Assembly (NCBI RefSeq): GCF_030813715.1
Contig: NZ_JAUSUZ010000001.1
Coordinates: 3,658,001 to 3,722,000, forward strand
From: Catenuloplanes indicus
Lineage (GTDB): Bacteria; Actinomycetota; Actinomycetes; Mycobacteriales; Micromonosporaceae
Reading direction: 5' to 3'
DNA length: 64,000 nt
A program made the position numbers and the translations under genes. The notes beneath the pieces were generated by a model. It had not been told where the DNA came from. It saw nothing but the letters and a program-made list of their open reading frames with translations, and ran no database searches. Shown here in pieces: positions 40,285-64,000 of the stretch (the stretch's first letter is position 1; each line of letters starts with the position of its first letter).

Positions 40285-40722
40285 TCAGAACTCGACCACG
40301 ACGGCCGGATCGGTGAGCGCGCGGCGTAGTTCGCCGAGGTTACCAATGGTGGCGAGCGGGGACATGCGGGCGACATCGACGATCGCGGTGAGCGACGCCT
40401 GGATGGTCGCGTTATCGCCGGTTTCGCGGGCTTTGGCGAGGTCCTCGAAGAGCCGGTCATGAATCCTGTCCGCCGCGGCGAAGGCCCGGTCGAAATACTC
40501 GCGGACGGTTTGCGCTGCAGTGTCGAGGCGTTTGATTTCGATGTCGCGGCGGGCGCGGATCTCTTCGCGGCGGGTGGCCGCGGTCTCCCGCACTTCGATG
40601 CCCTGCTGCCGTGCGTTGATCAAGGTTTGCAAGGCGGAGACGACATCCGTGGAGTTGACCACGAACGTGGTGTTCGTGCCGGCCGGGGTGGACTCGGGCT
40701 GGCTAATGTCGTAGTCAGGCAT
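40285..40722 (-). CDS. Helical (coiled-coil) protein of unknown function, 145 residues
   Basis: After a short N-terminus, residues about 25-125 form long amphipathic helices (VVSALQTLINARQQGIEVRE; TRREEIRARRDIEIKRLDTA; TVREYFDRAFAAADRIHDRL) with heptad character and many charges. No domain is recognised. The ATG overlaps the end of the upstream membrane-protein gene by eight bases, so the two are coupled and probably form one complex. Confidence 0.6.
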   Translation of the reverse strand: MPDYDISQPESTPAGTNTTFVVNSTDVVSALQTLINARQQGIEVRETAATRREEIRARRDIEIKRLDTAAQTVREYFDRAFAAADRIHDRLFEDLAKARETGDNATIQASLTAIVDVARMSPLATIGNLGELRRALTDPAVVVEF

Positions 40723-42282: not shown

Positions 42283-44406
42283 TCATGCGTGCACAAATCG
42301 TACGGATTCGCCGAGAACAGCATCGGCGCCCTCAAGGTCGGACAGTCGGGCGGCCAGCGTGGCCAGCGCGAGCCGTTCCGGCAGCGCTTGGCTGAACTTG
42401 AGTCCGTCGAGGGCCTTCTTGTTGACGTCGGGGAGGCAGAGTCGCTGGCTGGCGTCGGCGATGAGTGCCCGCCATTCGGCGGGGGTGACGTTTTCCCGGA
42501 GTCGGATGTGCCGGTCGTCGAAGCGCTGGATCGGGTCGACGACCTCCGTTAGGGTCGCGGCGAGGGTGGCGTTCGCTCGGAAACCGGCCCAGGTCCACCA
42601 CTGGAGGTCGTCGCCGCGGTTGTCGCGCAGAATGACGCTTCCGCCTGGGTGCACAAGCGGGGATTCATCCTCACGCACCTGCGCGAGACGATCGATAGCT
42701 CGGCGGGTGAGTTTCACCGGCGGGTTCGCACCGAGCAGGACTTCACGCATGGCACGGCTCAACTCGAAGCCGAGACCCGACCAGCCGCCGGTTGTCCAGC
42801 GGGCCTTGCCGCCGCCGTCGGCGGGTTCGACAAAGCAGCGGCGGCGGCGCCAGTCGATGTAGGTGACTCGCCAGCTGCGTCCGTTGAGCAGAAGGCGTCG
42901 GTCGTCCTGGACTTCTTCGGTGAGTAGAGCTGGGTCGACGCGGCCGAGTTCTTCGCGGCCGACGAGCACGGTGAATTCGGGTGCGCCGGTGAAGACGGCG
43001 GTCATGGTCATGAAGTGCCGGTGTCCGAAGCGCCGTTCGGCTTCGGGCCCGATGAAGAGCATGCCGCCGTCGCTGTCCAGGTAGCCCTGATCGATCAGGT
43101 GGCGCAGGATCGGGTCGGCGCTGCGGTCGAACGGGGCGAGTCCATTCCACCACTGCGGCCATGTCTGATCTCCTGCTCGGTGTTCCTGCAGGCAGAGCGC
43201 GAGTATCTGCTGGGCAGCGATGTGCCTGGGTTCGGGTGGCGCGATGACAGGCTCCACCCATCCACGCCCCCAGAGCAACAGCAGAGCAGCGGCTTCGAGC
43301 AGAGCGTCGCCGTCGCGGGCGAGGAACAGGCAGTTGCGGATGCTGCCGGGCCGGCGGCCGGTACGGCCGAGGCGCTGGAGGAACGATGCCACGGTCGTGG
43401 GGGTGTCGATTTGGATGACGCGGTCGAGGTCGCCGACGTCAATGCCGAGTTCCAGGGTGCTGGTGGAGACGATGACGCAGTCACGTGCTTCGGCGAACGC
43501 TTCCTCCGAGCGGCGCCGTTCGTCGGCGGAGAGCGAGGCGTGTGACAGAAACGTGGTGATGCCTTTGCCTCGTAGGAGGCTGCCGAGTTCTTCGACCGCT
43601 TGCCGGGACTCGCAGAAGACCAGGCGCTTCTCCCCGGCGTGAAGGCTAGCGATGATCTTGGCGGCGTTCTGGAGGGAGCCGACGTAGTCGAGCTCGATCT
43701 CTCCGGGCGGCACAGCGGGAGCAGGTTCTCCCGGTACGAGGACGGGCAGGTCTGGCGCGACGACGCGGGCTGGCCGGGTACCGGCGCCCGAACCTTGCAG
43801 CCAGGTCAGGAGCCTGTCCGGGTTACCCACAGTCGCGGATAGCCCGACCCGTTGTACTGGTCGGCCGATCAGGTGGGTGAGGCGCTCCAAAACGGCCAGC
43901 AGGTGCCAGCCTCGGTCGTCCCCGGCGAAGGCGTGAACCTCGTCCACCACGACGGCCTGCAATCCGGCGAAGAACGCCCGGTGGTCGACTTTCTGGCTGA
44001 CCAGCATCGCCTCCAGAGATTCCGGGGTGGTCAGCAGCAGGTCAGGGCGTGCGGCCAGGATGGCTTGCCGGCGGGACGCGGTGACGTCGCCGTGCCAGAG
44101 GGCGGCCTTGCGGCCGAGCCAGTCGGCGTACCGGTCCAGCCGGGGCTGCAGGTTGTTGAGCAGGGCTTTGAGTGGGCAGAGGTACAGCACCGATGTACCG
44201 GACCAGCTCTCCACGGTCATGCGGGAGAGAAGCGGGAAGGCCGCGGCCTCGGTCTTGCCGCCCGCGGTCGGCGCCAGCAGCAGGGCGTCCTCGCCGGCTA
44301 GCAGCGGCTCGACTGCCGCTTCCTGCAATGGCCGCAGGCCGGGCCACTGCAGGGAGTTGACGATGTGGTGCAGCAGGACCGGATGCAGTAGGTCGGTGCT
44401 GCTCAC
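42283..44406 (-). CDS. brxHI: BREX type 2 Lhr-like DEAD/DEAH helicase BrxHI
   Basis: A protein of 707 residues. Superfamily 2 motifs are complete: LLLAPTAGGKTEAA (Walker A, 46-52), VVVDEVHAF (DEVH, 155-158), GLSATVGNP (SAT, about 189) and FLQRLGRTGRRPG (motif VI, about 343-352). The C-terminal half matches Lhr-like accessory domains. BrxHI is the helicase specific to type 2 BREX. The ATG overlaps the end of brxD by four bases. It is the last gene of the pglY-pglZ-brxD-brxHI operon. Confidence 0.88.
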   Translation of the reverse strand: MSSTDLLHPVLLHHIVNSLQWPGLRPLQEAAVEPLLAGEDALLLAPTAGGKTEAAAFPLLSRMTVESWSGTSVLYLCPLKALLNNLQPRLDRYADWLGRKAALWHGDVTASRRQAILAARPDLLLTTPESLEAMLVSQKVDHRAFFAGLQAVVVDEVHAFAGDDRGWHLLAVLERLTHLIGRPVQRVGLSATVGNPDRLLTWLQGSGAGTRPARVVAPDLPVLVPGEPAPAVPPGEIELDYVGSLQNAAKIIASLHAGEKRLVFCESRQAVEELGSLLRGKGITTFLSHASLSADERRRSEEAFAEARDCVIVSTSTLELGIDVGDLDRVIQIDTPTTVASFLQRLGRTGRRPGSIRNCLFLARDGDALLEAAALLLLWGRGWVEPVIAPPEPRHIAAQQILALCLQEHRAGDQTWPQWWNGLAPFDRSADPILRHLIDQGYLDSDGGMLFIGPEAERRFGHRHFMTMTAVFTGAPEFTVLVGREELGRVDPALLTEEVQDDRRLLLNGRSWRVTYIDWRRRRCFVEPADGGGKARWTTGGWSGLGFELSRAMREVLLGANPPVKLTRRAIDRLAQVREDESPLVHPGGSVILRDNRGDDLQWWTWAGFRANATLAATLTEVVDPIQRFDDRHIRLRENVTPAEWRALIADASQRLCLPDVNKKALDGLKFSQALPERLALATLAARLSDLEGADAVLGESVRFVHA

Positions 44407-45716
44407 AGGTCTAGGGCGATCTCGTCGGCGCTGGCGGCGTTGCGCTCTACGTCGGTCATCTCGGCAGTGGTCATCGTGGGCGCGTAGTGCCGACGCGGGT
44501 CGAAGTCGGAGAACTGATCGACCCGGTCCAGAACGTCACTGACGAGCTTCTTGAGGTAGAGGCGGGGCACGATGCCGACCTTGCCACCGAGTCCGCCGGC
44601 CACGGCCCGCGCGAGCTGATCGAGGTACGTGTCGTCGATGAGATCCCGAACCCGCTCGGCTGCGGATGATCCGTCGGCGTAGAGGTCCCGGACCCGGCCG
44701 CCCAACTCGACCAGGGAGTCGATGGTGAAGCCCGGTAACCGGATCTGCACGGCGCGCGGGTTGTCGAACCGAGGGTCGGTGTCGAAGTCGACGGCGAGGC
44801 GCTGTGCCAGGGGTGCCAGGCGTTGCACTCCCTGTTGCCCGTCGTAGAAGGCGGGTGTGCCGGTGATGATCAGGTACAGGCCGGGGAAACGGCCGGAGTA
44901 GACCTCGTCGATCAGTTGCCGTAGCGCGTTCAGGGCCTTGTCGCGGGCGTCGGAACGGACCCGCTGCAGTGTCTCCACCTCGTCGAGCACGAGCAGCAGG
45001 CCGGGATGGCCGCTGTCGCGCAGCACCGCGAGAAGTCCCTGCAGGAAACTCAGTGCGGCGAAATGATCGAGGTTGCCTTTGACACCAGCCACCCGTCGCG
45101 CGGCGGCTGCCACGTGCGGTTGGCCGCCCAACCAGGCCAGGACGGCGTCGGCGGTCGCGGCGTCGCCGGACAGGCCGGCGGTCCGGTAGCCGCGGAGGGC
45201 GGCAGCGAAGGCGGGGGCGCTGCGGCTGACCTCGGCGAGACGCTGATCCAGGAGGACGCTGACCGCGCGGTCGAGGGCTGCCGCGTCGTCGGGGTCGACA
45301 TCGCCGGCGGCCAGCACGTCCTCTTCCAGGGCGTAGAACCAGCCGTCGACGACCGGGCGTAACGCGCTGGGCGGGAACGTCGTGGTGGTGAGCCGCTCGG
45401 TGAGCCTGCGATAGACCGTTTCCAACTTGTGCAGCGGTGTCTCGTTCTCCGAGATCTGCACCTCGGCCGTGGCGAGGTTGACGCGTTTGGCCCGCTCGGC
45501 GATCCAGCGTACGAAGAACGTCTTGCCGGAGCCGTACTCACCGCGGACGGCTTTGAAGACCGAACCGTTGGCGGCGACCGCTTCCAGGTCTTCGTCGATG
45601 GCGCGGTGGAACCGGTCGAGACCGACGGCGAGGAGGTCGAGACCTGCCGAGGGTACGGCGCCGCGGCGCAGGGCGTCGATGACTTCGCGTCGTCGCAGCG
45701 GGCTGGCACTGGTCAC
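44403..45716 (-). CDS. brxD: BREX type 2 P-loop ATPase BrxD
   Basis: A protein of 437 residues. Walker A is VRGEYGSGKTFFVRW (59-66) and Walker B LLLVLDEVETLQ (about 240-251), followed by sensor-like LYLIITGTPAFYDG. The overall arrangement fits the BrxC/D ATPase family with the DUF2791-type core. The C-terminus contains a winged-helix-like region IVPRLYLKKLVSDVLDRVDQ. The GTG start overlaps the pglZ stop in GTGA, and the stop overlaps brxHI. It probably works with the helicase in phage exclusion; the exact role is not established. Confidence 0.85.
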   Translation of the reverse strand: MTSASPLRRREVIDALRRGAVPSAGLDLLAVGLDRFHRAIDEDLEAVAANGSVFKAVRGEYGSGKTFFVRWIAERAKRVNLATAEVQISENETPLHKLETVYRRLTERLTTTTFPPSALRPVVDGWFYALEEDVLAAGDVDPDDAAALDRAVSVLLDQRLAEVSRSAPAFAAALRGYRTAGLSGDAATADAVLAWLGGQPHVAAAARRVAGVKGNLDHFAALSFLQGLLAVLRDSGHPGLLLVLDEVETLQRVRSDARDKALNALRQLIDEVYSGRFPGLYLIITGTPAFYDGQQGVQRLAPLAQRLAVDFDTDPRFDNPRAVQIRLPGFTIDSLVELGGRVRDLYADGSSAAERVRDLIDDTYLDQLARAVAGGLGGKVGIVPRLYLKKLVSDVLDRVDQFSDFDPRRHYAPTMTTAEMTDVERNAASADEIALDL

Positions 45717-48451
45717 GAGCGCTCCCCAGAGAGCCGGAACTGCTCGCGCAGCAGGCGGATGTCCAGCCGTACGGTGCGCCCGTCGTCGATCAGGGTCAGC
45801 ACCGGGTAGTTGTCCACATTGAAGACGCGCTGCAACGTGGAGACGAAACCGGTCGCACGTGCGGGGATCTCACCGGCGCGTTCGGCGAGGACGGCCGCCG
45901 GCAGCACGCCTTTGGCCTCCACCAGGGCGCGCAGCGCCGCTTCGACCTTCTTGATGTCGAGGCGACGCGGGGTGAGGGCGTGCTGTGCCGCGAACAGTTC
46001 GCTGTCCTTCAATTGCTCGACGAGGTTGGCGTCGGCTGTTGGCGGTGTCGTTGTCGGCGTGTCCTGGGGGATGTCGAACAACGTCTCGCCGGCAGCGGGC
46101 GTGACCGGCGGCTTGCGGCGTGACTTGGGTGTGGCGGAGGGGAGCTCCGGTGCCGCTGTCGGCGAAGGTGTGGCCTGCTGCCACCAATCCGGGCTGCGCA
46201 CCTCGACCGCTGACCAGCCCGCCGGTACGTCGGTCACGTGCGGCAGGAGGAAGGCCAGCAGTGGGATGGTGACCTCGGCCAATGACGCTCCGCCGTGGTA
46301 ACCGGCCTTGCTGGGCCGGTAGCGCAGCCGCGGATCCCACAGCGCGATAATCCGGTTGTCCGGGGCGACGACCCGCGGCCCGGTCAGCTCCACCTCTCCC
46401 GGGCCGGCGGGGCCTAGACCGGTCCGATGCCGGGCGGAGGCGGCGTCGGCTGCCCGCACATGGTCACCGCCACGTTCCAAGACGTGCCCGTGGTCGCTGG
46501 TGATGACGACGGCCCGGCCGGACGACCGAGCGAGGTCGAGCAGGCTGCGCAGGAACCCGACGTCGCCGATCTGCCAACCGGCCTCGCTGCCCTCCCGGCC
46601 GTGGGCGAGCGACTCGTCGACCGTGTTGATCACGACGGCCACCAGGTTGCCCGAGTCTGCCACCGCGTCGGCCAGGTCACCGGCGAAAACTTCACCAGCA
46701 CCGCCGCGCGCCGGCCCTTTGTGGAAGACCTTGGCGTCCTTGCCCCAGCGACCGTCGGCGATGAAACGCTTCTCGTTGTCCTGGCTGCCGCTGCGCAGAG
46801 CACCGGCGAACAGCGACGTTCGAGAGACCGCGGTCAGGGTGGGCAGAGCGGCGACGACACCGCGCCGCCGCGAGGTCCCCGACCCGGCGAGCGGATCGTA
46901 TTCCACCCAGTGCTGCGACAGCTCATCGGCCAACTGGATGGCGACGGCCGCACTCATCCCGTCGAGTACGACGAGAAGCACCCGCCGATTCGCCCGCAGC
47001 AGAGGCTCGACGACACGCGGGAGCAGGTTCTCGACGGTCAGCAGCCCGCCGTCGTTGCCAGGCCCGGCTGTGGCCCATGCCTGTAGCCGGCCCGCGAATG
47101 ACTCGTCCAGGCCGCGCCGCCGTTGCCGGGCCCGCTCGTAGATTTCGCGGAAAGCCGCCTGCAGTTCGGGATGCACGTCGTCGCCGGCCCAGACGTGGTC
47201 GACCGCCACATCCACCCAGCCCCAATCGGCGATCTGCCGGTCCACGCCGTCGGCGACGCTGGCCGGCGGTGGGACCGTTTCGCCGAGCCAGCGGACCAGT
47301 CGCTGGGCCATCTGAATCCGGCGGACACGTTCAACCTCGGCGGTGGCCAGGTCATGGTCGGCCAGGCTACTGACCGCCGCGTCGAGTGCCGGGTCGCCCG
47401 GTTTGTCGAGGGCGGCCAGCAGCGTGGTGGCGGCGGTGCTGATCCTGCGGGTGAATCCGGTCCGAAGGATCGGGCTGGCGGCCGCACTGGAGACCGCACC
47501 GAACTGGAGGAGCAGCTCTTCGGCACGATCCAGCACAGCGTGCCCGTCCCGCCGGACCTCCGACTCCGGCGCGGACAACATCCCGCGGACCACCTGAACG
47601 ACGGCGTCGGCGAAACCGGTAACGGTCGCGTCGTCGTCCAGTTTGCCGAAGTACTGATCGATACGTCCCCGGGCCCGGATGGCCTCATTGCCACGGGCCT
47701 GCCAGACCGCGTGACAGACCAGCCCCAGCGGCAAGGCGTCGTCGCCGTGACCAGCGTCGACGAGCGCGAACAACGCTCGCGCGGGCCGACCGTACTGACC
47801 GGTCAGCCACTGTTTGAGGCCTTCTCGTTCAGCGGCTCGCAGCAGCCCGAACGCTTCGACCGCTCCGGGCTCGGAACTCCACCGCAACAGGGCATCGACG
47901 TCGAGATCGTCCGGCCCGGCGCCGCGCCGGTCCAAGCCGAGGCGTACGGCGGCGAGGTGCCGCAAAGCGACGTCGCGGGTCAGCACCGGCGTGGTCAGCT
48001 TCGGCCAGCCCGCCGGCGGCATCGCATCTACAAGCGCTTCGCCGGCCCACGCCTCCTGCTCCAGAGCGCTGTCCGGTTGCCGGGCACCGAAAGCCTCCAC
48101 CACCAGGTCCCAGGGTTCCATGGTGATGACTCGATGACGGAAGACGCGGCTGCGGACACCATCACCGAGAGCGGCCTCGGCGAGATCGGTAAGCAGCACC
48201 AGCACCTCATCCGGCCGGTCGGTGACCAGTTGGTCCCAGATCGCCAGCGGGGATCCGCACGCCACGACGCGGGCGGTTCGCCCGTCGGGCAGCGAGATCG
48301 TCGGGTCGTGCGGCCAGACCGGCTCGGCGCGCAGCAGGATCACCGGGTACGCGTTGCCGTTACGGTGCCGTTCGAGTTGCTGGGCGACCTTCTGCCGCAG
48401 GGCGATCGGATTGACCCGCAGCGCCCGAGCCGACGTGGATGCCTGAGTCAC
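45713..48451 (-). CDS. pglZ: BREX alkaline-phosphatase-fold protein PglZ
   Basis: A protein of 912 residues. The PglZ domain occupies the middle: RRVLLVVLDGMSAAVA (about 490-504, first metal Asp), TLTAVSRTSLFAG with the expected Thr/Ser nucleophile, INTVDESLAHG and VVITSDHGHVLERGG (about 648-662, metal Asp and His). The N-terminal 470 residues are helical; the C-terminal 170 include a Pro/Thr-rich linker and a winged-helix-like end. PglZ is the core signature protein of BREX. The GTG overlaps the pglY stop by four bases. Confidence 0.92.
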   Translation of the reverse strand: MTQASTSARALRVNPIALRQKVAQQLERHRNGNAYPVILLRAEPVWPHDPTISLPDGRTARVVACGSPLAIWDQLVTDRPDEVLVLLTDLAEAALGDGVRSRVFRHRVITMEPWDLVVEAFGARQPDSALEQEAWAGEALVDAMPPAGWPKLTTPVLTRDVALRHLAAVRLGLDRRGAGPDDLDVDALLRWSSEPGAVEAFGLLRAAEREGLKQWLTGQYGRPARALFALVDAGHGDDALPLGLVCHAVWQARGNEAIRARGRIDQYFGKLDDDATVTGFADAVVQVVRGMLSAPESEVRRDGHAVLDRAEELLLQFGAVSSAAASPILRTGFTRRISTAATTLLAALDKPGDPALDAAVSSLADHDLATAEVERVRRIQMAQRLVRWLGETVPPPASVADGVDRQIADWGWVDVAVDHVWAGDDVHPELQAAFREIYERARQRRRGLDESFAGRLQAWATAGPGNDGGLLTVENLLPRVVEPLLRANRRVLLVVLDGMSAAVAIQLADELSQHWVEYDPLAGSGTSRRRGVVAALPTLTAVSRTSLFAGALRSGSQDNEKRFIADGRWGKDAKVFHKGPARGGAGEVFAGDLADAVADSGNLVAVVINTVDESLAHGREGSEAGWQIGDVGFLRSLLDLARSSGRAVVITSDHGHVLERGGDHVRAADAASARHRTGLGPAGPGEVELTGPRVVAPDNRIIALWDPRLRYRPSKAGYHGGASLAEVTIPLLAFLLPHVTDVPAGWSAVEVRSPDWWQQATPSPTAAPELPSATPKSRRKPPVTPAAGETLFDIPQDTPTTTPPTADANLVEQLKDSELFAAQHALTPRRLDIKKVEAALRALVEAKGVLPAAVLAERAGEIPARATGFVSTLQRVFNVDNYPVLTLIDDGRTVRLDIRLLREQFRLSGERS

Positions 48452-51400
48452 GGCACAATTCTCCACGTCACCTCGATGGCGCCGCTGTCGTGCTTGGCGG
48501 CGAAGGCACGCACCTGCTCGACGGCCTCGTCCACGGATGCAGCCCTCACGGTGATGCGCCCGGCAGGCGGAACATCATCCCCGCCGCCCGGCTTCGGAGG
48601 AACGATGATCGGCGGGTTGACGACGGGCGGTGTCGGCGGTTTGCGGGTTGCACGGCGCAACAGTTCGGTGGCGGCACTTCGCGCACGACCCAGGACGGGT
48701 GCCAACGGGGTCGTCAGCTCGTCGGCACGGGCCGCAGCGCGTATCTCCGCGATGATCGACGTGGCCTCGAAGGCGTGTGGTTCCGGCAACCCGGCGATGA
48801 TCTCGAAGGTGTCCCACGGCGCACCGGCCAGTGCCGAAGCCACCTGAGCCGCGCTCTTGACACTGCGCCCGGTGCGATCGGCCGGGCCGCCGAGGTCGGC
48901 ACGGGCCAGCCGCTCGATGATCTCCACCACCGGTAGCCCTTCGTCCAGTGCGGTGAGCAGCTCGGATGCGGCACGGGCGGTCGCCAGCCGGCCGGGGCCG
49001 GACTCCAGGTCGATCTCCAGCCACTTCGCATGCTGTTCGAGACGGGCGACAAGGTCGTCCGCGGCGGCACGGTGCTGGGCGGCCTGCCGGGCGAGGTCCC
49101 GCCCGAAGATCGTCATCAGGCGGCCCCGCCGCAGCGCGTACGTTCGGAACCCGAAGATCGCCATGGCACGGCTCTGGGCTTCCTCCCAGTCCTCCGGGCT
49201 GGGCAGCCGCTGCTCCCGCAACGCATAGTCGGTGTTGATCCGCCCGGGTTCCGGTGGTGGGCTCACCTCGCCGCCGTGCAGGAAGAACGCCCGGTCGCTC
49301 TGCTCGGCGAACGTCGCCACCACGAGCTGGGCCACGATCGGGTCGAGGCCGCGCGGGTTCGGATCGTCGATCCACCGCAGCAGGTCACCGACCCGGATCT
49401 CACCGTCGATGCCCTCGCTGGCGGCCTTCTGCTGGAAATGCTGCGCCCAGCGGCTCTCGATGACGAACGCCGCCTCGTGCATGGTGCCCAACTCAAGAGG
49501 GTTCGCGATGCGGCGCATGATCTGCCGGTGCGGCCTCTCCACCTCGACCCGACCCTCGGTGGATTCGACCGCCCGGCGGACGTAGTCGAGGACCGTCTTG
49601 ACGTCGGCCGCCTTGACCAGGTCGCCCTTGCGGTCGGGGTCGAAGTCCGGGTGAGCCGGGTACTGCTGGGTCAGCATCTGGTCGCCCAGGCTGCGCAGCG
49701 CATCAGCGAACGCCGCCCCGATCGGCAACTTCGGCTCCAAGACCCGGGTGAGTGGCTGCAAATGGTCGTCGAACCCGATCCGAACGTCGGTCGGCAGCTT
49801 CGAGGCCAAGCCGTACGCCTGGCGCAGCACGTTCTGCATCTTGGTCAGCAGCGCGCTGCGCTGATTGGTCAGAGCGGCGTGGGCACGACGCCGGTCGTCG
49901 GGGTTGAGGTGCTCGGCGTGACTGTCGAAGCGCTGACCTTCGAGCAGCTTGTCGATGATCACAAGCTTGCCCAGCTCGTTGAGGCGCTCCACGGTCAGCG
50001 CGGCCGGAATCCAGCACACCGTCCGTGCGGTCGTCCTGCTGAGCAGCTCCTGCACACGGTTCCGGTCGTCGGCGGGGCCGTGGCTGCCGTCGTCGAACGG
50101 GTAGTCGATGATGATCCGCCAGTTGGACGGGCTGTCGGGGTGGAACGACTCGTCGCGGATGTCGTTCGCGTCGCGCACGTTGCCGTACACCAGCTCGATG
50201 GTCCGGCGGCTGCCGCGCCAGGTCAGACCGGCCTCGGCGAAAAACGAGTCGTTCCAGGTCACGCCGAGCTGCTGCCACAACATCCGCTGGACGATGTGTT
50301 TGCGGGCGCCCTCGTTGTCGTAGTGCTTGGCGGTGGACAGCACGCTGCCCACGTCCACGCCGACCAGCTCCAGCGAGACGACCGGGTCGTCACCCTCACT
50401 GATCCGGATCTCGGGGAACTCGCCGGCCCAGTCGCCGAGCTTGCGAGAAACCTGGGCGACCTCACCGCCGGGAATGGGGCTGGTGATGCTGCCGTGGTTC
50501 AGTGCCGACAGCCGCCGGGCCGTCAGGTTCCGCAGTGCTGGCACGCTCGGCGCCAGCGAGGCCAGCAGCAGCGTCTTGATGAGCCGGTCGTCGCCCGTAA
50601 ACGCCCGCACCCGGCCAGCCACGTCGGGCGGGAGGGTGGCACCGCGGCGGGCCGCGTCCAGGTCGTCGTCGGTCAGGCCGTACTGCCCGAGCAGGTACGG
50701 GCGCATCTTGAGCGCGTACAGCTTCTGGGCCATCTCGAACTCGGCCTTGAGCTTCTCGGTGAACGGCTGGTCACCGCCGCTGCTGATCACGTCGTAGAGA
50801 TCGCCGAGCGGCACCAGTTGGCCGAGGCGCAGCGTGTCCCGGCGGTCGACCAACAGTTGGCGCATCAGTTTCAGGGCGGTGCGGGAACGCTGAAGCGCAC
50901 TGGAGACGTGGACCAGCGTGGACAGAAAGGCCGGGCTGAACGGGTACGTCTTCCGGAAGGCATCAATGTCGGCCCCGCTGGCCGAGTCCGTGCCGAGCAG
51001 TGTGTCGAAGACTTCCCGGCGAACCTTGGTGGTGGCGTCGAACGCACGAGAGATCGCGACGCCGGCCTCGTCGGTCAGGGGTTTGAGGACCCGCTTCCTG
51101 GCGATCTCCGGAAGGTTGCGGTCCTCCAGTTGGATCACGTCGAAGCGACCGCTGGCCAGGTTGAGGGTGTCCTGGTAGCTCAGCTCGTTGGCGCCGGTCA
51201 CCTCCTCGCCGACGAGTTCGCGCAGGTCACGCTGCCGGGCGATGAAGCTGATGATGGGAATCGGCCGGCGGGTGTTGCCGCCCTCGACGAAGTTGGTGAT
51301 CTTCTGGATCTCGCGAGAGACGAACTGCTGGTCGCCGATCGAGTTGGCCAGCCACAGAATCAGCTCGTCCAGGAAGAGGATCAGCCCGTCGTACCCGAGC

Positions 51401-52182: not shown

Positions 52183-52194
52183 GCCGCTTACCGT

Positions 52195-52216
52195 ATAACT
52201 CCAGCGCTGGAGTTAT
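52195..52216. promoter_or_regulatory. 22-bp perfect palindrome in the pglY promoter
   Basis: The half site ATAACTCCAGC is followed directly by its exact complement GCTGGAGTTAT, without spacer or mismatch. It lies 13 bases upstream of the pglY start codon, between the pglX terminator and pglY, so it is placed to block transcription of pglY-pglZ-brxD-brxHI. The regulator is not known. Confidence 0.75.
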
Positions 52217-52270
52217 CACGCCGCTCCGCCGGGTGACCGATAGAACGATCAGCACACCCCACCGAACGGC

Positions 52271-52302
52271 GGAGCCGGGCCGACTGCTGCCGACCCGGCT
52301 CC
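52271..52302 (-). terminator. Terminator after pglX
   Basis: A 9-bp perfect stem (GGAGCCGGG with CCCGGCTCC) around 14 bases, 22 bases beyond the pglX stop on the transcribed strand. It separates pglX from the pglY operon, which therefore needs its own promoter. Confidence 0.65.
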
Positions 52303-52324
52303 TTACCTTCTGCTGATCAGTGAC

Positions 52325-55300: not shown

Positions 55301-55912
55301 CGGGGTCTGCAGCAGTGCGTACGTCTTCTTGGCGTACTCGGAAAGGTCTTGATAAAGGTCTCCGAGGAAGCGGGTGTCCCACACCTCGTCGCGGAAGCTG
55401 TGTACCAGGTCGCCGAATTCGCCGCGGCGGCGCCAGAAGCCGATCAGTTCCTTGGCCGCGTCGTGTGACATCGGGATTTGGTAGAGCGGGTTGTGCCGCT
55501 TGTCGAAGAGCGACTTGCCGGCCTGGCTGCGGCCGATCGCGTCGAACCCCTGGTGCAGCCAGTCGCGCAACGTCTTGTCCGGCTGGTCGCGGAAGAACTG
55601 CGCCTCCGCCTCCTCGGCCAGCACCAGCCGGTCGCCTGGCCCGGCCAGGAACGGCTCCGGCAGCAGCCCGTTGTCCTCACAGAAGCGGACGAAGACCGTG
55701 CCGAGAACCCACGCCACTGCGGCCTGGGTGACCCGCTCGTCGCGCCACACCGTCCAGGTCGCGGAGGTGCGGCCCACCTTGAACGCGTAATCGTATTCAC
55801 CGCGCAGTCGGAGGCGTACCTCCTCGACCGACTCAGCCTGCTCCTGCAGGTCCTTTTCCAGGGTCTTGACCTGCTTCTGCAGGTCACTCAAGAGCAGTTT
55901 GCGGTCGATCAC
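52325..55912 (-). CDS. pglX: BREX adenine-specific DNA methyltransferase PglX
   Basis: A protein of 1195 residues. The SAM-binding motif I is MIDPTCGSGHFVLGAF (about 230-244) and the catalytic motif IV VVGNPPYITV (NPPY at 362-365), typical of N6-adenine methyltransferases of the gamma class. An N-terminal helical domain (1-200) and a large C-terminal target-recognition part flank the core. In BREX, PglX methylates host DNA as the self mark and is needed for exclusion. Bases about 53480-54340 (residues about 525-810) are visibly less GC-rich than the rest, as expected for a variable recognition domain. The GTG start has no strong ribosome site. Confidence 0.93.
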   Translation of the reverse strand: MIDRKLLLSDLQKQVKTLEKDLQEQAESVEEVRLRLRGEYDYAFKVGRTSATWTVWRDERVTQAAVAWVLGTVFVRFCEDNGLLPEPFLAGPGDRLVLAEEAEAQFFRDQPDKTLRDWLHQGFDAIGRSQAGKSLFDKRHNPLYQIPMSHDAAKELIGFWRRRGEFGDLVHSFRDEVWDTRFLGDLYQDLSEYAKKTYALLQTPEFVEEFILDLTLTPAIDEFGHDQVKMIDPTCGSGHFVLGAFDRLFKQWERHAPNRDAHERVRLALDAVHGVDINPFAVAIARFRLLMAALRASGIATLADAADYVFPMHLAVGDSLIKHRAGTLFGGDPMTEFAYATEDVAEHPGILTAGSYHVVVGNPPYITVKDKGLNEAYREMYDACSGKYALSVPFAQRFFQLAKQGDGEGKGAGFVGQITANSFMKREFGKKMIESLFALDVNLTHVIDTSGAYIPGHGTPTVILVGRNTNRGRASTIRTVMGIRGEPSAPADPRKGLVWQAIVGQVDTPGSESQWVSAAETSRSALAKFPWSLAGGGAGGVLQSIETASAVNLGSNLFRIGFYGVMGADEAMTAPAATFVRLGVEGDYHRRLVVGDEQRDWATLDGDHAFHPYDSARKLVQLDVMPQHGKRLWPFRNDLGNRATFSRGTYFGDGRPWFEWHQIPRDEKANEWSISFAFVATHNHFVLDRGGKVFKQSAPVIKLPEDATEDDHLRLLGVLNSSTACFWLKQVSHNKGRPGAEQAGADEPWEHRFEFTGTKLQEYPLPTGYPLGLCREMDKLALRLAAVRPMEIAASGVPSRERLYAAESEWHSVRARMIALQEELDWRFYALYGLLDGELIAPDDAVPELNPGERAFEIVMARQIEAGELETTWFVHHNHKFTPITELPAHWTAEYRAIVEQRIAVIENNRNIALIERPECKRRWATEGWEAMQAKALRDWLLDRCEARELWFHHVDGMEQPRPLTTAQLADELRRDDDVLSVAGLYAPGQDLGKVIADLVADEHVPHLAALRYKDSGLVTRADWENVWVLQRQEDALRDDAAKKEFRKKIPVPPKYKPTDFLKTSYWRHRGKLDVPKERFISYPGGGRDGDPSLLIGWAGWDHREQAQALSTLIVAREQEDGWDADRLLPLLAGLREVLPWVRQWHGEFDPVWGESPADTYTGFLSETAGRLHLTDGAMASWRPVKATRGRRAKA

Positions 55913-56026
55913 CCGATGACTCTAGCCGCCGACCGGGCCGCTGAAGAGGACCGTCTTGGCCTGGTTGTCGACCGTTTGGCGGAAGAGCACGCCTCTATGC
56001 TCGTCCGCGTGATTACCAAGGTGACG

Positions 56027-57052
56027 ATGAAGCAGCTGTCGACGGCGCGTGGCTGCGTTCTTGGCCTTGTGCTCGGCGACGCGATCGGTGCCGCAGGCGT
56101 CGAGGTGCCATCCAGCGGCGTGTTGCGAGCGACCAGCGCCGCCCAGCTCGCCTGCTTCACGATCGAGGGCGTCATCCGGGCGCACGTGCGAATGGCCCAC
56201 AAGGGGATCTGTCACCCGCCGGGCGTGGTCTGGCATGCGTACGCACGGTGGGCCACCATGCAGGGGATTTCTGAGATCACGCCGTGGGAGAAGGAGGGCT
56301 GGCCCGACGGCTGGCTCGCTCGGGTGCCGGTGCTGGCCGTTCGGCGTGGCTCGGCGCCGGCCACTGTTACGGCGTTGCAGAGCGGCACGATGGGCCAGTT
56401 CGATAAGCCGGCCGGGAGCAGCATCGGCGCGCACGCGCTGACCCATGTCCTTCCGGCCGGGCTCGTGGGTGACTGGGTTCAGGAGCCTGGACGTTTCGCG
56501 GCGGAGATCGCGGCGACCACTCACGTCGGTGAGGCGGTGTATGCGGCTGCCCTGGGCGCGAGGATCGTCGCCGAGATCGTCAAGGGTCAGGGCATCGAGG
56601 ACGCGATACGACAGGTGCAGCCGGAGAGTCTGACCTTCCTGGAACAGCAGCTCGATTCGCCCCTCGCAGATGCCGTGGAGGTTGCACGAGCTCAACCCCG
56701 GCAGGCTGCGAGGCTTGCTCAGCTCGCGCCCGATGCCCGAGCGGCTTCCGCGCTGGCCGGAGGCGTCTACGTCGCGCTCTCCTTTCCCAGGCGTGACCAG
56801 ATCCGCGATGCCTTGCTCTTCGCCGTCTCCAGCGGCAACGGGAGTCACGTCGCTGCGGTCGCCGGTGCTCTGTTGTGCGCTGCCCACGGTGCTGACGCGT
56901 TGCCCGTCGACTGGGTGTCCCGGCTGGAGTTGGCGTGGGTCGCCGACGTCCTCGCTCGTGACCTCATCGCAGAGTTCGTCGACCAACCATCGGGCACCGA
57001 ATACACCCCCGGTGACGATCCGAACTGGAGGGATCGCTATCCGGGCTGGTGA
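56027..57052 (+). CDS. ADP-ribosylglycohydrolase homologue lacking metal-binding motifs
   Basis: A protein of 341 residues with the DraG fold. GCVLGLVLGDAIGAAGVEVP (10-29) keeps the first conserved block. The usual TDDT metal motif is replaced by ATSAAQLACFTIEG (35-48), and the usual second block GGD(S/T)D(S/T) by SGNGSHVAAVAGALLC (268-283). Loss of both Asp clusters should prevent Mg binding and hydrolysis, so it may only bind ADP-ribose or a partner. It is the only plus-strand gene inside BREX, divergent from pglX and overlapping the nuclease gene tail-to-tail by 16 bases. AAGG is five bases before the ATG; an ATG at 55997 is possible. Confidence 0.75.
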   Translation: MKQLSTARGCVLGLVLGDAIGAAGVEVPSSGVLRATSAAQLACFTIEGVIRAHVRMAHKGICHPPGVVWHAYARWATMQGISEITPWEKEGWPDGWLARVPVLAVRRGSAPATVTALQSGTMGQFDKPAGSSIGAHALTHVLPAGLVGDWVQEPGRFAAEIAATTHVGEAVYAAALGARIVAEIVKGQGIEDAIRQVQPESLTFLEQQLDSPLADAVEVARAQPRQAARLAQLAPDARAASALAGGVYVALSFPRRDQIRDALLFAVSSGNGSHVAAVAGALLCAAHGADALPVDWVSRLELAWVADVLARDLIAEFVDQPSGTEYTPGDDPNWRDRYPGW

Positions 57053-57726
57053 GCAGCCTGTTCGGATCGTGCTGGCTCAACCGCCGCAGCAAGCCATCGG
57101 AGTTGTCCGTTCGTGCCGTCGAGGTTGGAGTAGTCGCGCCAGGTGATCGGGTAGCTGCCGGACAGGGTCCGCTCGCTGCCGGCGTGGTAGCTACCTTCCG
57201 TGCCCCAGCGCAGCAGACCCGACAGGTTTTTCTGCCCTTCGTGGATCCGGAATGCCTGGTCGCGGGTGAGTTTGGCGGTCGCGGGCGGTTGCCAGAGCCG
57301 CTGGTCGTTGGTCAGCATGATCGCGAAGCCGTTCGACGCGCGACCGGAAGCACAGAACTTCTCCAGCCGGGCTATGTCGAAGACAAAGCCCTGCCGTCCG
57401 AGGTCGGTGGCCTCGTGGTTGCGCAGATGGAACGATTCCCCGGTGACCGGGTCCGCGCCGACCCATGTCCTGGTGAAGTACTTGAACTCGACAGCTGTCC
57501 GGGCCCGCGGCCCGAAGCAGAGCAGTTCGACGTACTCACGGGTGTCCTGCCGGACCTCCAGCCGGATCTGAAGCGAAGGCTCAATCTCGCGCAGCACCCA
57601 GGCGAAGGCGTGCTGGAAGTCGGCCTCGGAGTGGAACACCGGCCGCACCGAACTCAGCTTCTCCATGACGGTGCTGACGTCGACGGCTCCTGCGATGAGC
57701 GGCGTCGGGTCATCGTGCCGGATCAC
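57037..57726 (-). CDS. PD-(D/E)XK-like nuclease encoded between pglW and pglX
   Basis: A protein of 229 residues. FHSEADFQHAFAWVLREIEP supplies an early Glu (34), EYVELLCFGPRARTAVEFKY gives Glu67 and the Glu80-x-Lys82 pair, together fitting the E...(D/E)...ExK order of PD-(D/E)XK nucleases. The rest is unassigned, with a Trp-rich end. The GTG start overlaps the pglW stop in GTGA, so the two are co-translated, and it is a natural part of this BREX locus. It may be an effector nuclease or a structural partner; no cleavage specificity can be predicted. Confidence 0.65.
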   Translation of the reverse strand: MIRHDDPTPLIAGAVDVSTVMEKLSSVRPVFHSEADFQHAFAWVLREIEPSLQIRLEVRQDTREYVELLCFGPRARTAVEFKYFTRTWVGADPVTGESFHLRNHEATDLGRQGFVFDIARLEKFCASGRASNGFAIMLTNDQRLWQPPATAKLTRDQAFRIHEGQKNLSGLLRWGTEGSYHAGSERTLSGSYPITWRDYSNLDGTNGQLRWLAAAVEPARSEQAAHQPG

Positions 57727-60700
57727 GCGGTGGCGGCGCTACGGTGCGTGTTCTCGACCCAGGCGTCCGGGAGGGAGATCCATTCGTTGTCGCCGACCCG
57801 GACCACCGTGCCGTCGAGTTTGGGCAGCAGGTCCGGGTCTTCGGTCGGGCACAGCAGCCACAGCTCACCACCGCCGCCGCGGGCCGCGTCCGCCAGTTCG
57901 TACAGTCGCTCCATCGCCCGATAGCGGGCCAGTATCGCCGCGTCGTGCAGCAGCAGCGGGCCGCCGCCGGTCCGGAGTTCGTCGAGCAGTTGCGGGGCGA
58001 CTGATGCCCATGCCTGCTCCACGTACTCGCCGAGCTTGATCGCCGAGCGGGTGCCGGGTTCGGCGATGTCAGCGCCGAGCACGGTTTCCCAGGTCGGTTT
58101 CGGCCGGGCGTCGACCAGGCTGTGCAACGTGGTCAGGAAGCGAGAGGCGACGTTGAGCGGCCGGGCGGAGAAGCGCCGAACGAGTTCTTCACGGGCCAGG
58201 GCGTACCGGGAAAGCCGTACCGTCAAGGCGCGGAAACCGCCGGCGGACGCCGCGCCGGTCAGGCGTTCTTCGGCGCGCAGCGCCGAAGCCAGGATCGGGG
58301 AGTCCGCGGTCCACGCGGTGGGTGCCGTCGACGCCGACGACCGACGCCGCACGATGGTCATGGACGAGGACGCGGCGGCCCGGGTGGGGGCGGTGTAGTG
58401 GTCGCGGTTCCAGATCAGCTCGAAGCCGGCCTCGGTCAGCAGGCGGTCGAGGCGGGGGTGTCCGGGAAGCGGCGCGAGGTCCGGGAAGCGGGCGGCGACC
58501 CGGTCGGCGATCTGCGCGGGGGTGAGGCCGCGCGGTTGACCGGGTAGGCCGGCGGGTGGCAGGACGCCGGCCTGGGCAAGGCGCAGCGCTCGTACGGGGT
58601 CGAGGTTGCGTGGGTAGATCTCCAGCCGGGCGGTGGCGGCGGCGTTCTCCGAGGCCACCGCGGCGAGCAGGACCCGCCGCCGTTCGTCGATGGCGTCGGC
58701 GGCGCCCCCGGGTGCGGTCACCGTCGCGAGGGTGCGCAACACGGTAGCCGGGCTGGGCAGCACCTCGTTGCCGGCGAGGCGGTCGGCAGCCTTGCCGAGC
58801 GCGTCGGCGTAGTCGAGCAGGGCCGGTGCGGCCGGGGTGTCCGGGGCGTCGTCCTCGCCGGCTTCCAGCGCCACGAGCAGCCGGTCGCCGTGGCGGCGCG
58901 TCAGCAGGCGCGGTTCGTCGGCGAGGGCGTCGATCTCGACGGCGGCGCGGACCGCGGCGAGCGCGACGGTGTGGCGTAGCTCGTCACCCGTGCGCATGGA
59001 TCCGCGGCTGGTGAGCAGGGCGGTGGCCAGTTCGTCGACGCCCATCACCCGGCCACCGTCACGCAGCAGGTCGATCAGCTCAGTGCGGACGCTGGACACG
59101 ACCGGGATGTCATTCCAACGTTTGCGCTGTTTACCGAGGATCTGCGCGACCCGGCCAGAGGTCACGTTCAGGGCCGCAGCAACCTGCGGCTGTTGAGGCC
59201 ACGGCGTCAGGCCGGGCAGGGCTCCGGTCTCGTCCGGCAGGCGCAGCAACAGCCGGGTGCCATCGACCTCGGTGGCGTTGCGGCCGTTCTTGGCCGGGAT
59301 GAGCAGGGTGGCGATCGCGTCCAGACCCACCCGGACGAGCTCGGCATCGGCGGGGCCACCGGACAATTCGGCGGACGCCTCGGCGGCGGCGCTGCGGCGG
59401 GCGTTCGGTGAGGTCGGCAGGGTTTCCCGCTCGGCCAGTCGGGCACGCCAGTCCTTGACCCGGCGCTGCAGCTCCTGGCGGGTCTTCGCGCCCAGGCCGG
59501 GTAGGTGGGCCAGCTTGTTCGCCACGGTGAGCAGGTCACCGACCGTGGCGGCGTCCAGGCGGTGGGCGGCGGAGACCGCCCGGGGCGTCAGGCCGGCGGC
59601 TTCCAGGGCGGTGGCCCGGGTTGCCTTGGCGGCAGCCTCGTCGCGGGCGGCCTCGGCGACCTCGACGTCCGGTTCATCCTGCGGCTCGGGGTGCTCGGTA
59701 CCGACCGGCGCACTGGCGTCGGAACGTCGAAAGACCTGCTGCCAGGCGTCGCGCATGTCCTTGAGCGAGGCGAACCGGGCACGACTGTCACGATGCAGGG
59801 CGAGCTGGAAGAAGTCGACCAGGCCGTCGCGGATCGCCGGGTCGAACGCTTCGGCGGCGAGAACCGGTGGGCCCTCGGTGTGCTGAGGTGCGGCGCCGTC
59901 GTCGTCCCAGCCGGGCAGCTCTCCGGAGGCCATCTCGTGCAGGGTGACGGCCAGGGCGTACCACTCGGCGTGTTTGTCGTAGACGGGCCGGTTGACCGTT
60001 CCCAGGAACGGGTCCAGATACCGCGGTGTGCCCGCGGTGATCTCCTTGACCGACACGCCGGCCAGCGAGAAGTCGAAGAGCACGAGCTGGCGGGTGCGGT
60101 TGGGACGGATCCGGATCGCGATGTTGTCCGGCTTGATGTCTCGGTGGTAGACGCCCTCGCCTTCCAGATAGTCCAGGGCGCCGAACAGGTAGTCGCTGTA
60201 GGTTTCCAGCTCGTCGACGGTGAGCCGGCCGTCGTCGCGGAGTTTGCGGGCCAGTGTCAGGTCACCGGCGTGTTCCAGCACGATGATGGTGCGGTTGGCG
60301 ATCCGCAGGGGTTCGGGCCGGGCCAGCCGGATCACCCGGGAGTCGGTCAGCGGGCTGAGAACACGCGCTTCATGGGTGAGGCGGCTGGCTTTCTCGTCGG
60401 AGAGGCCGACCTTGAGTACTTCGGCGCGGCCGGTGCGGTCGTTGTCGGCGAGGAAGGCGCGGCAGGTCGAACCGGTGCCGAGCCGCTTTCGGACGGTCCA
60501 TTCGCCGACCTTGTCGCCGGAGCGTGCCTCGAGCGGGTCGGTCGGCTCGGGTTCCGGCTGGGTGGGATGCACGGATGGGGGCGACGACGGTGTGGTCAGC
60601 TCCTCCTCGACAAGCTCGAGCATCTCGAGGAACTCGGCGGCGGTCGTCAGTCGCTGGGCCGGCACCGGCGCTGTCGCGGCCTGCACGAGTTCGTCGGCGA

Positions 60701-62117
60701 ACTCGGAGATGGAGTCGGCGACCGATGAGGCCCGCAGGCCGTTATCGCGGGTGAGGCGAGACAGCAGCTCAGGACGCTTCGCGGCTGGAGGCTGGCCGGT
60801 GAGGATCAGGTAGGCCAGCGAACCCAGACCGAAGATGTCCATCGCGACCGGATCCGGCCGCGGAGCGGTCATCTCTGGAGCCAGGTACGCCTCCGCCGAT
60901 CGTTCGAGGTGGGCCGCCGCGTGTGATGACAGCGCTACCACGCCGCCGCTGCCGTCACTTCCGGCGGAGTCGGTTCCTCGGGTCGCGGCCTGCCAGTCGC
61001 TGATCTGCAGCTGCGGGAGCAGCCACGCCTCCTCCTCCGAGCCGCCGCGCCGCTTCGGACGGGGAGTAACGAGAATGCTCCGTGCTGACAATGCCCGGTG
61101 ATGAAGGTGACGGCGATGCGCGTACGCCACCGTCTCGGCCAATTGCCGGATCATGGTGAGCCGAGCGGGCGCGTCCAGGCGATCCTGGTACTGGGCCATG
61201 TAGTGGTCCAGTCGCATGGAACGCGGGTCGTACCGGAAAATTAGTGCTGGGCCGGCCTCGTGGGACTCCATCGAGTCGACCTGGACGATGCCGGGATGGC
61301 TGATGCCGTGCAGGACGAGCATCTCCCGTTTGGCCGCCCGCTCGATGCTCGCCCGCTCGGTCTGCACCGCGTTGCGCTCGACCAGGTAGATCCGCACCCG
61401 GCGGCGTTCACGTTCCAAGTCACGATGCTTGGCGAGATGGTCCTGCCAAGTGGGACCGACATCGAACGGCCTGGTCTCCAACTCCCACGACCCGATCTGG
61501 TAATGCCGCCGGCTCCGCGCGATACCGATCTCGGCAAGCAAGTCGGGAAGCGCCCGGGACGTCTCGACGGTGAGCCGCTGCCGCTCGTCCTGCGGCGGGC
61601 GCTGCAGCAGCGCACCGATGGTCGGCAGCCGGTTCGCCGGGTTGGGGCCCACTGGCTCGGGGCCATAGACACCATGCAGGTGGTGGTCCGAGAGCTCAAC
61701 CTGCAGGCCGGGCTTCGACAGGAACACCGCGGCTTGCACAAACGGAATCCGGACAGGCGAGCCGCGCCGCCGGGAGGCCGCGGTTTGCAGGAGCGACTTG
61801 AGCTTCTTCGCCTTGGCATCGGCCAGGTGGAGCGGGTTGTCAAAGGTGCGGGTATGGCTGGGGCCGTGCTGGATCCAGTTCGAGCCGCTGGATACGAGCC
61901 GCCCGTTCAGGCTCTTGATCTCGATGAGGTAGAGGCCACTCGGTGCGGCCACGAGCAGGTCGACCTCGTACGGATGTCCGGTTTGCGCGGTGAAGGTGAA
62001 GTTCGACCAGGCCCGGTACGGCTCAGTGTCCGGTAGCAGTTGCTGTACGTACGCCAACGCCTCGCGCTCGTGCGCGAACTGCGACGGCGTGATCGTGGTC
62101 CACCGGCCCTCCTGCAT
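57723..62117 (-). CDS. pglW: BREX type 2 protein kinase PglW with NERD domain
   Basis: A protein of 1464 residues. Residues about 14-130 are a NERD nuclease-related domain (AHEREALAYV, EVDLLVAAPSGLYLIEIKSL with the D...ExK set). Residues about 205-505 form a first kinase fold with HHRALSARSI instead of HRD and SDWQ instead of DFG, so it is a pseudokinase. Residues about 537-800 form a second kinase with RLGTGSTCRAF, YHRDIKPDN (658-665) and LFDFSLA (DFS for DFG), probably active. The C-terminal 600 residues include a helix-hairpin-helix-like section (LAHLPGLGAKTRQEL). PglW is diagnostic of type 2 BREX. Confidence 0.92.
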   Translation of the reverse strand: MQEGRWTTITPSQFAHEREALAYVQQLLPDTEPYRAWSNFTFTAQTGHPYEVDLLVAAPSGLYLIEIKSLNGRLVSSGSNWIQHGPSHTRTFDNPLHLADAKAKKLKSLLQTAASRRRGSPVRIPFVQAAVFLSKPGLQVELSDHHLHGVYGPEPVGPNPANRLPTIGALLQRPPQDERQRLTVETSRALPDLLAEIGIARSRRHYQIGSWELETRPFDVGPTWQDHLAKHRDLERERRRVRIYLVERNAVQTERASIERAAKREMLVLHGISHPGIVQVDSMESHEAGPALIFRYDPRSMRLDHYMAQYQDRLDAPARLTMIRQLAETVAYAHRRHLHHRALSARSILVTPRPKRRGGSEEEAWLLPQLQISDWQAATRGTDSAGSDGSGGVVALSSHAAAHLERSAEAYLAPEMTAPRPDPVAMDIFGLGSLAYLILTGQPPAAKRPELLSRLTRDNGLRASSVADSISEFADELVQAATAPVPAQRLTTAAEFLEMLELVEEELTTPSSPPSVHPTQPEPEPTDPLEARSGDKVGEWTVRKRLGTGSTCRAFLADNDRTGRAEVLKVGLSDEKASRLTHEARVLSPLTDSRVIRLARPEPLRIANRTIIVLEHAGDLTLARKLRDDGRLTVDELETYSDYLFGALDYLEGEGVYHRDIKPDNIAIRIRPNRTRQLVLFDFSLAGVSVKEITAGTPRYLDPFLGTVNRPVYDKHAEWYALAVTLHEMASGELPGWDDDGAAPQHTEGPPVLAAEAFDPAIRDGLVDFFQLALHRDSRARFASLKDMRDAWQQVFRRSDASAPVGTEHPEPQDEPDVEVAEAARDEAAAKATRATALEAAGLTPRAVSAAHRLDAATVGDLLTVANKLAHLPGLGAKTRQELQRRVKDWRARLAERETLPTSPNARRSAAAEASAELSGGPADAELVRVGLDAIATLLIPAKNGRNATEVDGTRLLLRLPDETGALPGLTPWPQQPQVAAALNVTSGRVAQILGKQRKRWNDIPVVSSVRTELIDLLRDGGRVMGVDELATALLTSRGSMRTGDELRHTVALAAVRAAVEIDALADEPRLLTRRHGDRLLVALEAGEDDAPDTPAAPALLDYADALGKAADRLAGNEVLPSPATVLRTLATVTAPGGAADAIDERRRVLLAAVASENAAATARLEIYPRNLDPVRALRLAQAGVLPPAGLPGQPRGLTPAQIADRVAARFPDLAPLPGHPRLDRLLTEAGFELIWNRDHYTAPTRAAASSSMTIVRRRSSASTAPTAWTADSPILASALRAEERLTGAASAGGFRALTVRLSRYALAREELVRRFSARPLNVASRFLTTLHSLVDARPKPTWETVLGADIAEPGTRSAIKLGEYVEQAWASVAPQLLDELRTGGGPLLLHDAAILARYRAMERLYELADAARGGGGELWLLCPTEDPDLLPKLDGTVVRVGDNEWISLPDAWVENTHRSAATA

Positions 62118-63901: not shown

Positions 63902-64000
63902 ACACAGCGGTGGCCGCCAGAGCGACATAGCGCACCCGCGTTACGCGGAGCCGGACCATGACCGCATTCGATGGCACGTTCACCTGATCGACCCGGTTGC

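Follow-up and report, generated by a model that had tools for sequence, protein, structure and literature searches.

The window analysed here, a stretch of 64,000 nucleotides from Catenuloplanes indicus, raises two linked questions: whether it carries a complete type 2 BREX (Pgl) phage-defence locus, as had been claimed in the original prediction, and what role, if any, is played by the genes that interrupt that locus. Inspection of the region at 42283-62117 revealed six core open reading frames (ORFs) with no internal stops, all on the minus strand and in the order pglW, two intervening genes, pglX, pglY, pglZ, brxD and brxHI (Table 1). The claim that all six diagnostic genes are intact and full-length was thus borne out at the level of the reading frames. 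The expected motifs were likewise all present. A script located Walker A motifs at residue 59 of BrxD and residue 45 of BrxHI in addition to that of PglY, a DEVH motif at residue 155 of BrxHI, DPTCGSG at residue 232 of PglX upstream of its NPPY motif, and HRDIKPDN at residue 658 of PglW, while Pfam searches returned NERD and kinase domains in PglW and a PglZ domain in PglZ.

Table 1. Features of the BREX-2 locus and its two internal genes (window coordinates).
Feature	Coordinates	Strand	Evidence
brxHI, SF2 helicase, 707 aa	42283..44406	-	PADLOC PDLC02503 BrxHI, 1087.5 bits; Pfam DEAD, Helicase_C
brxD, ATPase, 437 aa	44403..45716	-	NF033438, 663.5 bits (cut-off 350); 4-bp overlap with brxHI
pglZ, BREX-2 type, 912 aa (917 aa from GTG 48466)	45713..48451 (or 48466)	-	NF033446, 884 bits (cut-off 200); PF08665, 25.7 bits (cut-off 25)
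pglY, BrxC-type ATPase, 1244 aa	48448..52182	-	NF047891, 1773.5 bits (cut-off 1700); Walker A at residue 76
pglX, adenine-specific methyltransferase, 1195 aa	52325..55912	-	NF033451, 1769.9 bits (cut-off 400); NPPY at 362
Intergenic region of 84 bp separating the divergent pglX and antisense genes; candidate promoter	55913..55996	.	Coordinates, sequence
ARH-fold protein lacking metal ligands (pseudo-ADP-ribosylglycohydrolase), 351 aa	55997..57052	+	PF03747, 4.1e-19, 69.8 bits (cut-off 26.2); AlphaFold pLDDT 92; Foldseek to ARH3, E 4.6e-8
PD-(D/E)XK-like nuclease candidate, 229 aa	57037..57726	-	Motif E57..E67..E80-x-K82 (alignments A2, A4); AlphaFold pLDDT 83, weak Foldseek matches
pglW, NERD nuclease and tandem kinase domains, 1464 aa	57723..62117	-	NF033442, 1641 bits (cut-off 990); PF08378, PF00069

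Profile searches, which had been proposed as the test of the type 2 BREX assignment, came out in its favour. Five NCBIfam models scored above their cut-offs, and BrxHI was called with the PADLOC model; no BrxHI entry over cut-off was among the NCBIfam matches listed. In sum, PglZ, PglX with NPPY, PglY, PglW with NERD and kinase domains, BrxD and BrxHI were all recovered. Overlaps of 4 bp were observed at the brxHI/brxD, brxD/pglZ and pglW/229-aa gene junctions, and at pglZ/pglY too if translation of pglZ starts at GTG 48451; with this start, four core genes (brxHI, brxD, pglZ and pglY) are joined by four-base overlaps as had been described. By comparison, pglX overlaps neither neighbour, being separated from pglY by 142 bp and from pglW by 1.8 kb. 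Judged from its sequence, the locus is a complete type 2 BREX (Pgl) system with a predicted anti-phage function.

The prevalence of such systems was assessed among genomes of the host's family and phylum. A type 2 PglX was found in 87 of 354 family genomes (E <= 1e-100, partial matches counted) and in 8 of 396 sampled from the phylum as a whole, the genome of the window being counted. Given the former count, a complete BREX-2 is not unusual in the host group; the core itself is ordinary, and it is the arrangement that is less so. Synteny with a genome of the same genus (G004) ends at window position 36789 and returns 957 bp beyond position 64000, at a tRNA-Ala(GGC) gene, which places the BREX locus within a variable region of ∼28 kb that borders a tRNA gene. 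The corresponding region of G004 holds ∼11.5 kb of other DNA. Several further genes were recorded in the surroundings. A 274-aa gene lies upstream of pglW at 62209-63033 (minus strand), and L093, a distant BREX-2 locus, has a 63% identical copy that is likewise upstream of its pglW. It is followed at 63125-63901 (plus strand) by a gene for a 258-aa protein with weak MarR-like helix-turn-helix similarity under the Pfam cut-off. Just downstream of brxHI, the gene at 40715-41752 (minus strand) gave a weak PADLOC match (26 bits) to the candidate defence protein PDC-M09A, and at 27561-30718 (plus strand) a dynamin-like GTPase gene (PF00350) precedes an ORF that it overlaps by 4 bp.

Comparison of PglX with two near relatives (L021 and L042) revealed an uneven pattern of conservation. 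Identity was 82-100% over the first 300 residues and only 23-38% in 60-aa blocks at residues ∼541-660, a drop that was not seen against a third relative (L034). Residues ∼541-660 likely constitute the target-recognition region, and their divergence suggests that DNA specificity has been swapped. These data bear on the possibility that the locus, while intact in sequence, is silent or decaying in its host. In its favour, the pglX match is only partial, or the antisense gene described below is split, in some relatives; here, the core frames are open and full-length, five of them with an NCBIfam model over cut-off, and the divergence of PglX from its near relatives is concentrated in the probable specificity region, which is what a system in use would show. 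Silence or decay is accordingly considered an unlikely description of this locus.

The two accessory genes that had been reported within the gene order were both found, although the ORFs had not been named and one of them proved to lie on the plus strand, where it encodes a protein that matches PF03747. The accompanying remark that the locus is a natural variant was right and, if anything, understated, in that one interrupting gene is antisense to the core and inserts at the same point are common in the family. The antisense gene is divergent from pglX, with 84 bp between the two starts, and convergent with the 229-aa gene, with which it shares a 16-bp overlap. The strand assignment merits some care, since the complementary strand carries a 354-aa ORF (55922-56986) that would be a co-transcribed member of the operon. 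Read in the direction of the operon, this ORF is open in the window, and three relatives likewise lack stops in the in-register frame. However, it has no family match in PADLOC, Pfam or NCBIfam, and the minus frame contains one to five stops in six of nine BREX relatives in which the plus frame is open. In the locus that forms the eleventh case (L031, genome G236) the plus frame is itself split over two frames. At the protein level the plus frame has homologues of 55-83% identity in BREX-2, across nine aligned loci, and of ∼50% identity on two plasmids, in copies that lie outside BREX. Substitutions relative to two near relatives fall at position 3 of plus-frame codons in 81 of 150 and 107 of 197 cases. 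Codon scores at 55.9-57.1 kb part the strands only mildly (62 versus 36), and several of 11 real genes tested in this GC-rich window have long open antisense frames in register, of up to 1033 codons. The plus-strand call is thus made on the basis of homology, minus-frame stops and the substitution pattern; the minus-strand ORF was rejected as a shadow, and the chance that it is the real gene at this position is negligible.

The product of the plus-strand gene is an ADP-ribosylglycohydrolase by fold and by homology, as indicated by the profile match over cut-off and by the AlphaFold model, which superimposes on human ARH3 with a TM score of ∼0.7. Foldseek returned 61 PDB chains at E <= 0.001, and all among the matches listed were ARH-type proteins. 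In ARH3 the catalytic metals are held by Thr76, Asp77, Asp78, Asp314, Asp316 and Thr317 (PMC8141533). Alignment with a paralogue from the same genome and with ARH3 showed that the first of these is kept in the window protein as Thr46, and that the remaining five are replaced by Ser47, Ala48, Asn281, Ser283 and His284. The window copy thus retains one of the six ligands of the two-metal site that is found in active ADP-ribosylglycohydrolases. By contrast, a canonical paralogue in the same genome (L158) has intact TDDTQ and GGDTDT motifs; two more paralogues (L157 and L159) were not picked out by the motif script.

The generality of this loss was established in an alignment of 32 sequences, comprising the window protein and the products of 31 of the 60 loci from a contig scan (see below) selected for near-full coverage, with ARH3 numbering assigned by alignment. 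The equivalents of Asp77 and Asp78 are replaced in all 32 members. Of the 32, 23 retain Asp314 and 16 retain Asp316, for the most part members that do not belong to the BREX-linked branch. In the six pglX-linked members (the window and L097-L101), Asp316 is lost and Thr317 is changed to His without exception, and Asp314 is retained in two. Conservation is far higher at two other positions, the equivalent of Ser148 being kept in 31 of 32 sequences and that of His182 in every one, while Tyr149 is kept in none. These three positions are ADP-ribose-contact residues, of which the window copy has kept the serine and the histidine and not the tyrosine.

Mutational work on ARH3 provides a framework for interpreting this pattern. 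Substitution of metal ligands abolishes hydrolysis (PMC8141533), and the D77/78A, D314A and T317A variants still bind a mono-ADP-ribosylated peptide (PMC5727137). For binding, Tyr149, Ser148 and His182 mattered, as did a single change at Asp77 (PMC5727137), and magnesium raises the affinity of ARH3 for ADP-ribose by ∼60-fold (PMC8141533). By analogy with the ARH3 mutants that bind without hydrolysing, binding without hydrolysis is possible for the ARH-like protein. It would not be expected to hydrolyse ADP-ribose by the known two-metal mechanism and may still be a binder of ADP-ribose or a related nucleotide, serving as a reader or a brake. An active enzyme that removes ADP-ribose after phage or toxin ADP-ribosyltransferases have modified host proteins or DNA would also be in keeping with the PF03747 score and the full ARH fold; with five of the six metal ligands missing from the window copy, against an intact canonical paralogue in the same genome, such an activity is highly improbable.

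The distribution of the ARH-like gene was assessed in a scan of genome contigs, some of them short, which yielded 60 loci. Clear BREX-2 genes were nearby in eight. In six of the 60 (L097-L101 and L155) the gene is upstream of a BREX-2 pglX, and pglW is in view on the other side in five of these (L097, L099, L100, L101 and L155, the last with a partial ARH match); L098 is cut by the contig end. Two are Streptomyces BREX-2 loci (L124 and L126), in which the pseudo-ARH gene follows brxHI at a distance of ∼0.7 kb and in the same orientation. The remaining 52 loci have no clear BREX-2 core, and three of them show weak PglX-like or PglW-like matches. Within the host's family the gene was found in 31 of 354 genomes, being near pglX by coordinates in 11 (in one of these, G236, as a split gene) and having no pglX near it by this measure in the other 20. 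Ten of the 11 best-scoring genomes belong to the former group; the other (G169) is without a PglX match and keeps the same flanking genes. Viewed from the opposite direction, the ARH-like gene is present in 11 of 81 pglX loci, the window included, always antisense and upstream of pglX, with pglW beyond it in 10. Co-inheritance was weak, with Spearman coefficients of 0.27 against PglW (134 of 2000 permutations as high) and 0.35 against PglX (106 of 2000). The ARH-like family is not specific to BREX.

Other neighbours of the ARH-like gene were also recorded. In Micromonospora-type loci (L098, L099, L100, L164, L167, L173 and others) two small genes, one of them DivIVA-like, precede the pseudo-ARH gene on the same strand, and a small gene for a GntR-type regulator diverges from these two, also at L164 and L167, which have no pglX match. 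A search for partners within 5 kb in 68 loci returned a same-strand gene of ∼132 aa in 11 (all Streptomyces, L128 among them) and the DivIVA-like gene in eight. The one representative of the ∼132-aa gene that was scanned had no Pfam match, so that no partner enzyme was identified for the ARH-like gene in these 68 loci. The open-access journal literature searched contained no report of BREX with an ARH-like gene. In the passages that mention them, BREX and ADP-ribosylglycohydrolase appear apart in PMC10544981, and BREX and ADP-ribosylation appear apart in PMC12255303, in text on regulators and on DarTG; the terms 'ribosyl' and 'glycohydrolase' are absent from the main text of PMC12839542.

The second internal gene, which encodes the 229-aa protein, begins inside the stop codon of pglW. 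Its product has no family in Pfam, PADLOC or PHROGs, and no match was found in phage records or in the E. coli genomes searched. The E80-x-K82 element is invariant in all nine members of alignment A2, and Lys82 is absent from one of the eight members of alignment A4 (the BREX-linked L099). Position 67 is Glu in the window copy and Asp in the remaining eight sequences of A2. Foldseek matches to the AlphaFold model were weak, with none at E <= 0.001 and a Holliday-junction resolvase as the best at E 0.1; among those listed were RecU, HincII, MGME1, EndoMS and Hjc, besides unrelated proteins, and several of these weak matches are to PD-(D/E)XK enzymes.

Relatives of the 229-aa protein were found in 28 of the 354 family genomes, and the nine best-scoring are all near a BREX-2 pglX. 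The gene is next to BREX-2 in 12 of the 28: between pglW and pglX in eight, upstream of pglX in G160 and G238 (the latter with a partial pglX match), where pglW was not found or was out of reach, just upstream of pglW in G189 and just after brxHI in G102; G284, where it is ∼22 kb from pglX, was not counted. Relatives also occurred in 15 plasmid records, and the nine examined comprised two haloarchaeal BREX-5 loci, two prophage head-gene clusters and five that were elsewhere or unclear. Pairwise distances of the nuclease-like protein correlated with those of PglW (Spearman 0.53; 10 of 2000 permutations as high), the corresponding value for PglX being only 0.33 (80 of 2000). Stand-alone PD-(D/E)XK genes are a general pattern in BREX loci, in which they are regarded as auxiliary or backup effectors (PMC12839542). 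The 229-aa protein fits this pattern and, by analogy, would be a backup nuclease that is translated together with PglW.

To place both genes in context, the gap between pglW and pglX was compared across the family. From 93 PglX matches, 80 near-full-length loci were fetched, the window's own and 12 partial matches being left out; with the window included, both pglW and pglX were in view in 77 of 81 loci. The gap exceeds 500 bp in 42 of these (one of which, L075, probably reflects an unaligned pglW end) and is no larger than 180 bp in the other 35. Inserts were present in 23 of the 24 loci that branch with the window, for which PglW identity over the best segment is at least 58%, and in 19 of 53 loci of the distant branch. 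One representative of each protein cluster was scanned to identify the contents. A three-gene insert occurs in 16 loci, with representatives that match components A, B and C of the PADLOC candidate system PDC-M55, and an insert protein found in six loci has a representative that matches AbiEi. Relatives in other genera carry the same inserts at the same place, and eight BREX-2 loci of actinobacteria from other families (seven genomes) have neither of the window's two inserts. The pglW-pglX gap is thus a hotspot for insertion.

Such a hotspot could have collected the two genes as independent passengers with no BREX role, beside a core that works as usual. The varying contents of the 42 gaps over 500 bp, including the PDC-M55 set and AbiEi-like genes, are consistent with this, as is the finding that most members of the ARH-like family occur elsewhere. 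However, the two genes recur in fixed orientation within the gap, the ARH-like gene being antisense in 11 of 11 clustered members and the nuclease-like gene sense in nine of nine, and such recurrence in place and orientation is more than would be expected by chance. The 4-bp overlap of the nuclease-like gene with pglW and the correlation of its distances with those of PglW, and less so PglX, point in the same direction. The passenger reading is a serious one, to which we give somewhat less than even odds.

The explanation that we consider best, with a probability of roughly 0.7, is a complete type 2 BREX locus that carries one gene for a backup nuclease and another for a catalytically dead protein resembling an ADP-ribose reader, with both of these roles assigned provisionally. 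By analogy with the family (PMC12839542, PMC4365076), PglX would methylate DNA and so mark self, PglW, with its kinase and NERD domains, and the BrxC-type, BrxD and BrxHI proteins would sense and handle phage DNA, and PglZ would act as the main effector and as a brake on PglX. The 229-aa protein would be co-translated with PglW as a backup nuclease, and the ARH-like protein would bind ADP-ribose or a related nucleotide without hydrolysing it, as a reader or a brake. Several observations weigh against these roles: most ARH-like genes lie away from BREX, and co-inheritance of this gene with PglW or PglX is weak; the Tyr149 equivalent is lost, and Asp314 is kept in two of the six pglX-linked members; the nuclease-like protein shows Glu67 in the window, no Lys82 in L099 and only weak fold matches; and both inserts are absent from the eight loci outside the family. 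Since the ARH-like gene runs away from pglX and towards the nuclease gene, transcription of it could be coupled to that of pglX and could oppose read-through from pglW, and the result would be separate control of PglX. In S. coelicolor, PglX is toxic without PglZ, which suppresses the toxicity (PMC4365076). A more specific proposal is that the ARH-like protein is a built-in infection sensor, in which a dead hydrolase has been turned into a reader of ADP-ribose, NAD breakdown products or ADP-ribosylated proteins and sets PglX activity through the divergent promoter or by contact. This is a long shot; if true, this branch of BREX would watch for phage ADP-ribosylation besides unmethylated DNA.

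The core described here is one more intact BREX-2, and the new part is the recurring, oriented pair of internal genes. If the nuclease-like gene is functional, it would provide BREX-2 with a backup nuclease joined to PglW, and a functional ARH-like gene would link BREX to ADP-ribose biology, for which no precedent was found in the literature searched. The divergent arrangement at pglX would offer a simple handle on the restraint of toxic PglX, and the variable pglW-pglX gap is a place in which to seek further accessory defence genes.

Comparison with known systems brings out what is shared and what is particular to this locus. The Pgl system of S. coelicolor has the same pglW, pglX, pglY and pglZ genes and domain types, in two blocks, W-X and Y-Z (PMC4365076). 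There, pglWX form one operon 6 kb from pglYZ, whereas in the window two genes stand between W and X, and Y, Z, D and HI follow directly after X. In addition, S. coelicolor pglX phase-varies by means of a G tract (PMC4365076), and a search of the present pglX for homopolymers of at least 7 nucleotides returned none. The closest arrangements were found in Actinoplanes utahensis (L097, L021) and in family member G026 (L034), which have the same order of W, nuclease-like gene, antisense ARH gene, X, Y, Z and D; D and HI were found in both, and their PglW proteins are 95-97% identical to that of the window in the best segment. A. utahensis PglX differs most from the window protein at residues ∼541-660 (23 and 30% identity in two 60-aa blocks). 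The nuclease-like gene also has a relative in the plasmid-borne BREX-5 loci of Halocatena salina and Halorarius halobius, either immediately ahead of pglX or behind pglZ and a TBP gene. These loci are archaeal, unlike the present one, with no pglW in the stretches viewed and a nuclease-like identity of only 28-29%. The ARH-like protein has in common with the ARH3/DraG ADP-ribosylhydrolases its fold and the equivalents of Ser148 and His182; it differs from them in the loss of the catalytic metal ligands and of the Tyr149 equivalent, and in being a bacterial protein encoded antisense within a BREX locus. A precedent for a pseudoenzyme with the ARH fold is provided by ADPRHL1, a heart protein of vertebrates (PMC7390403).
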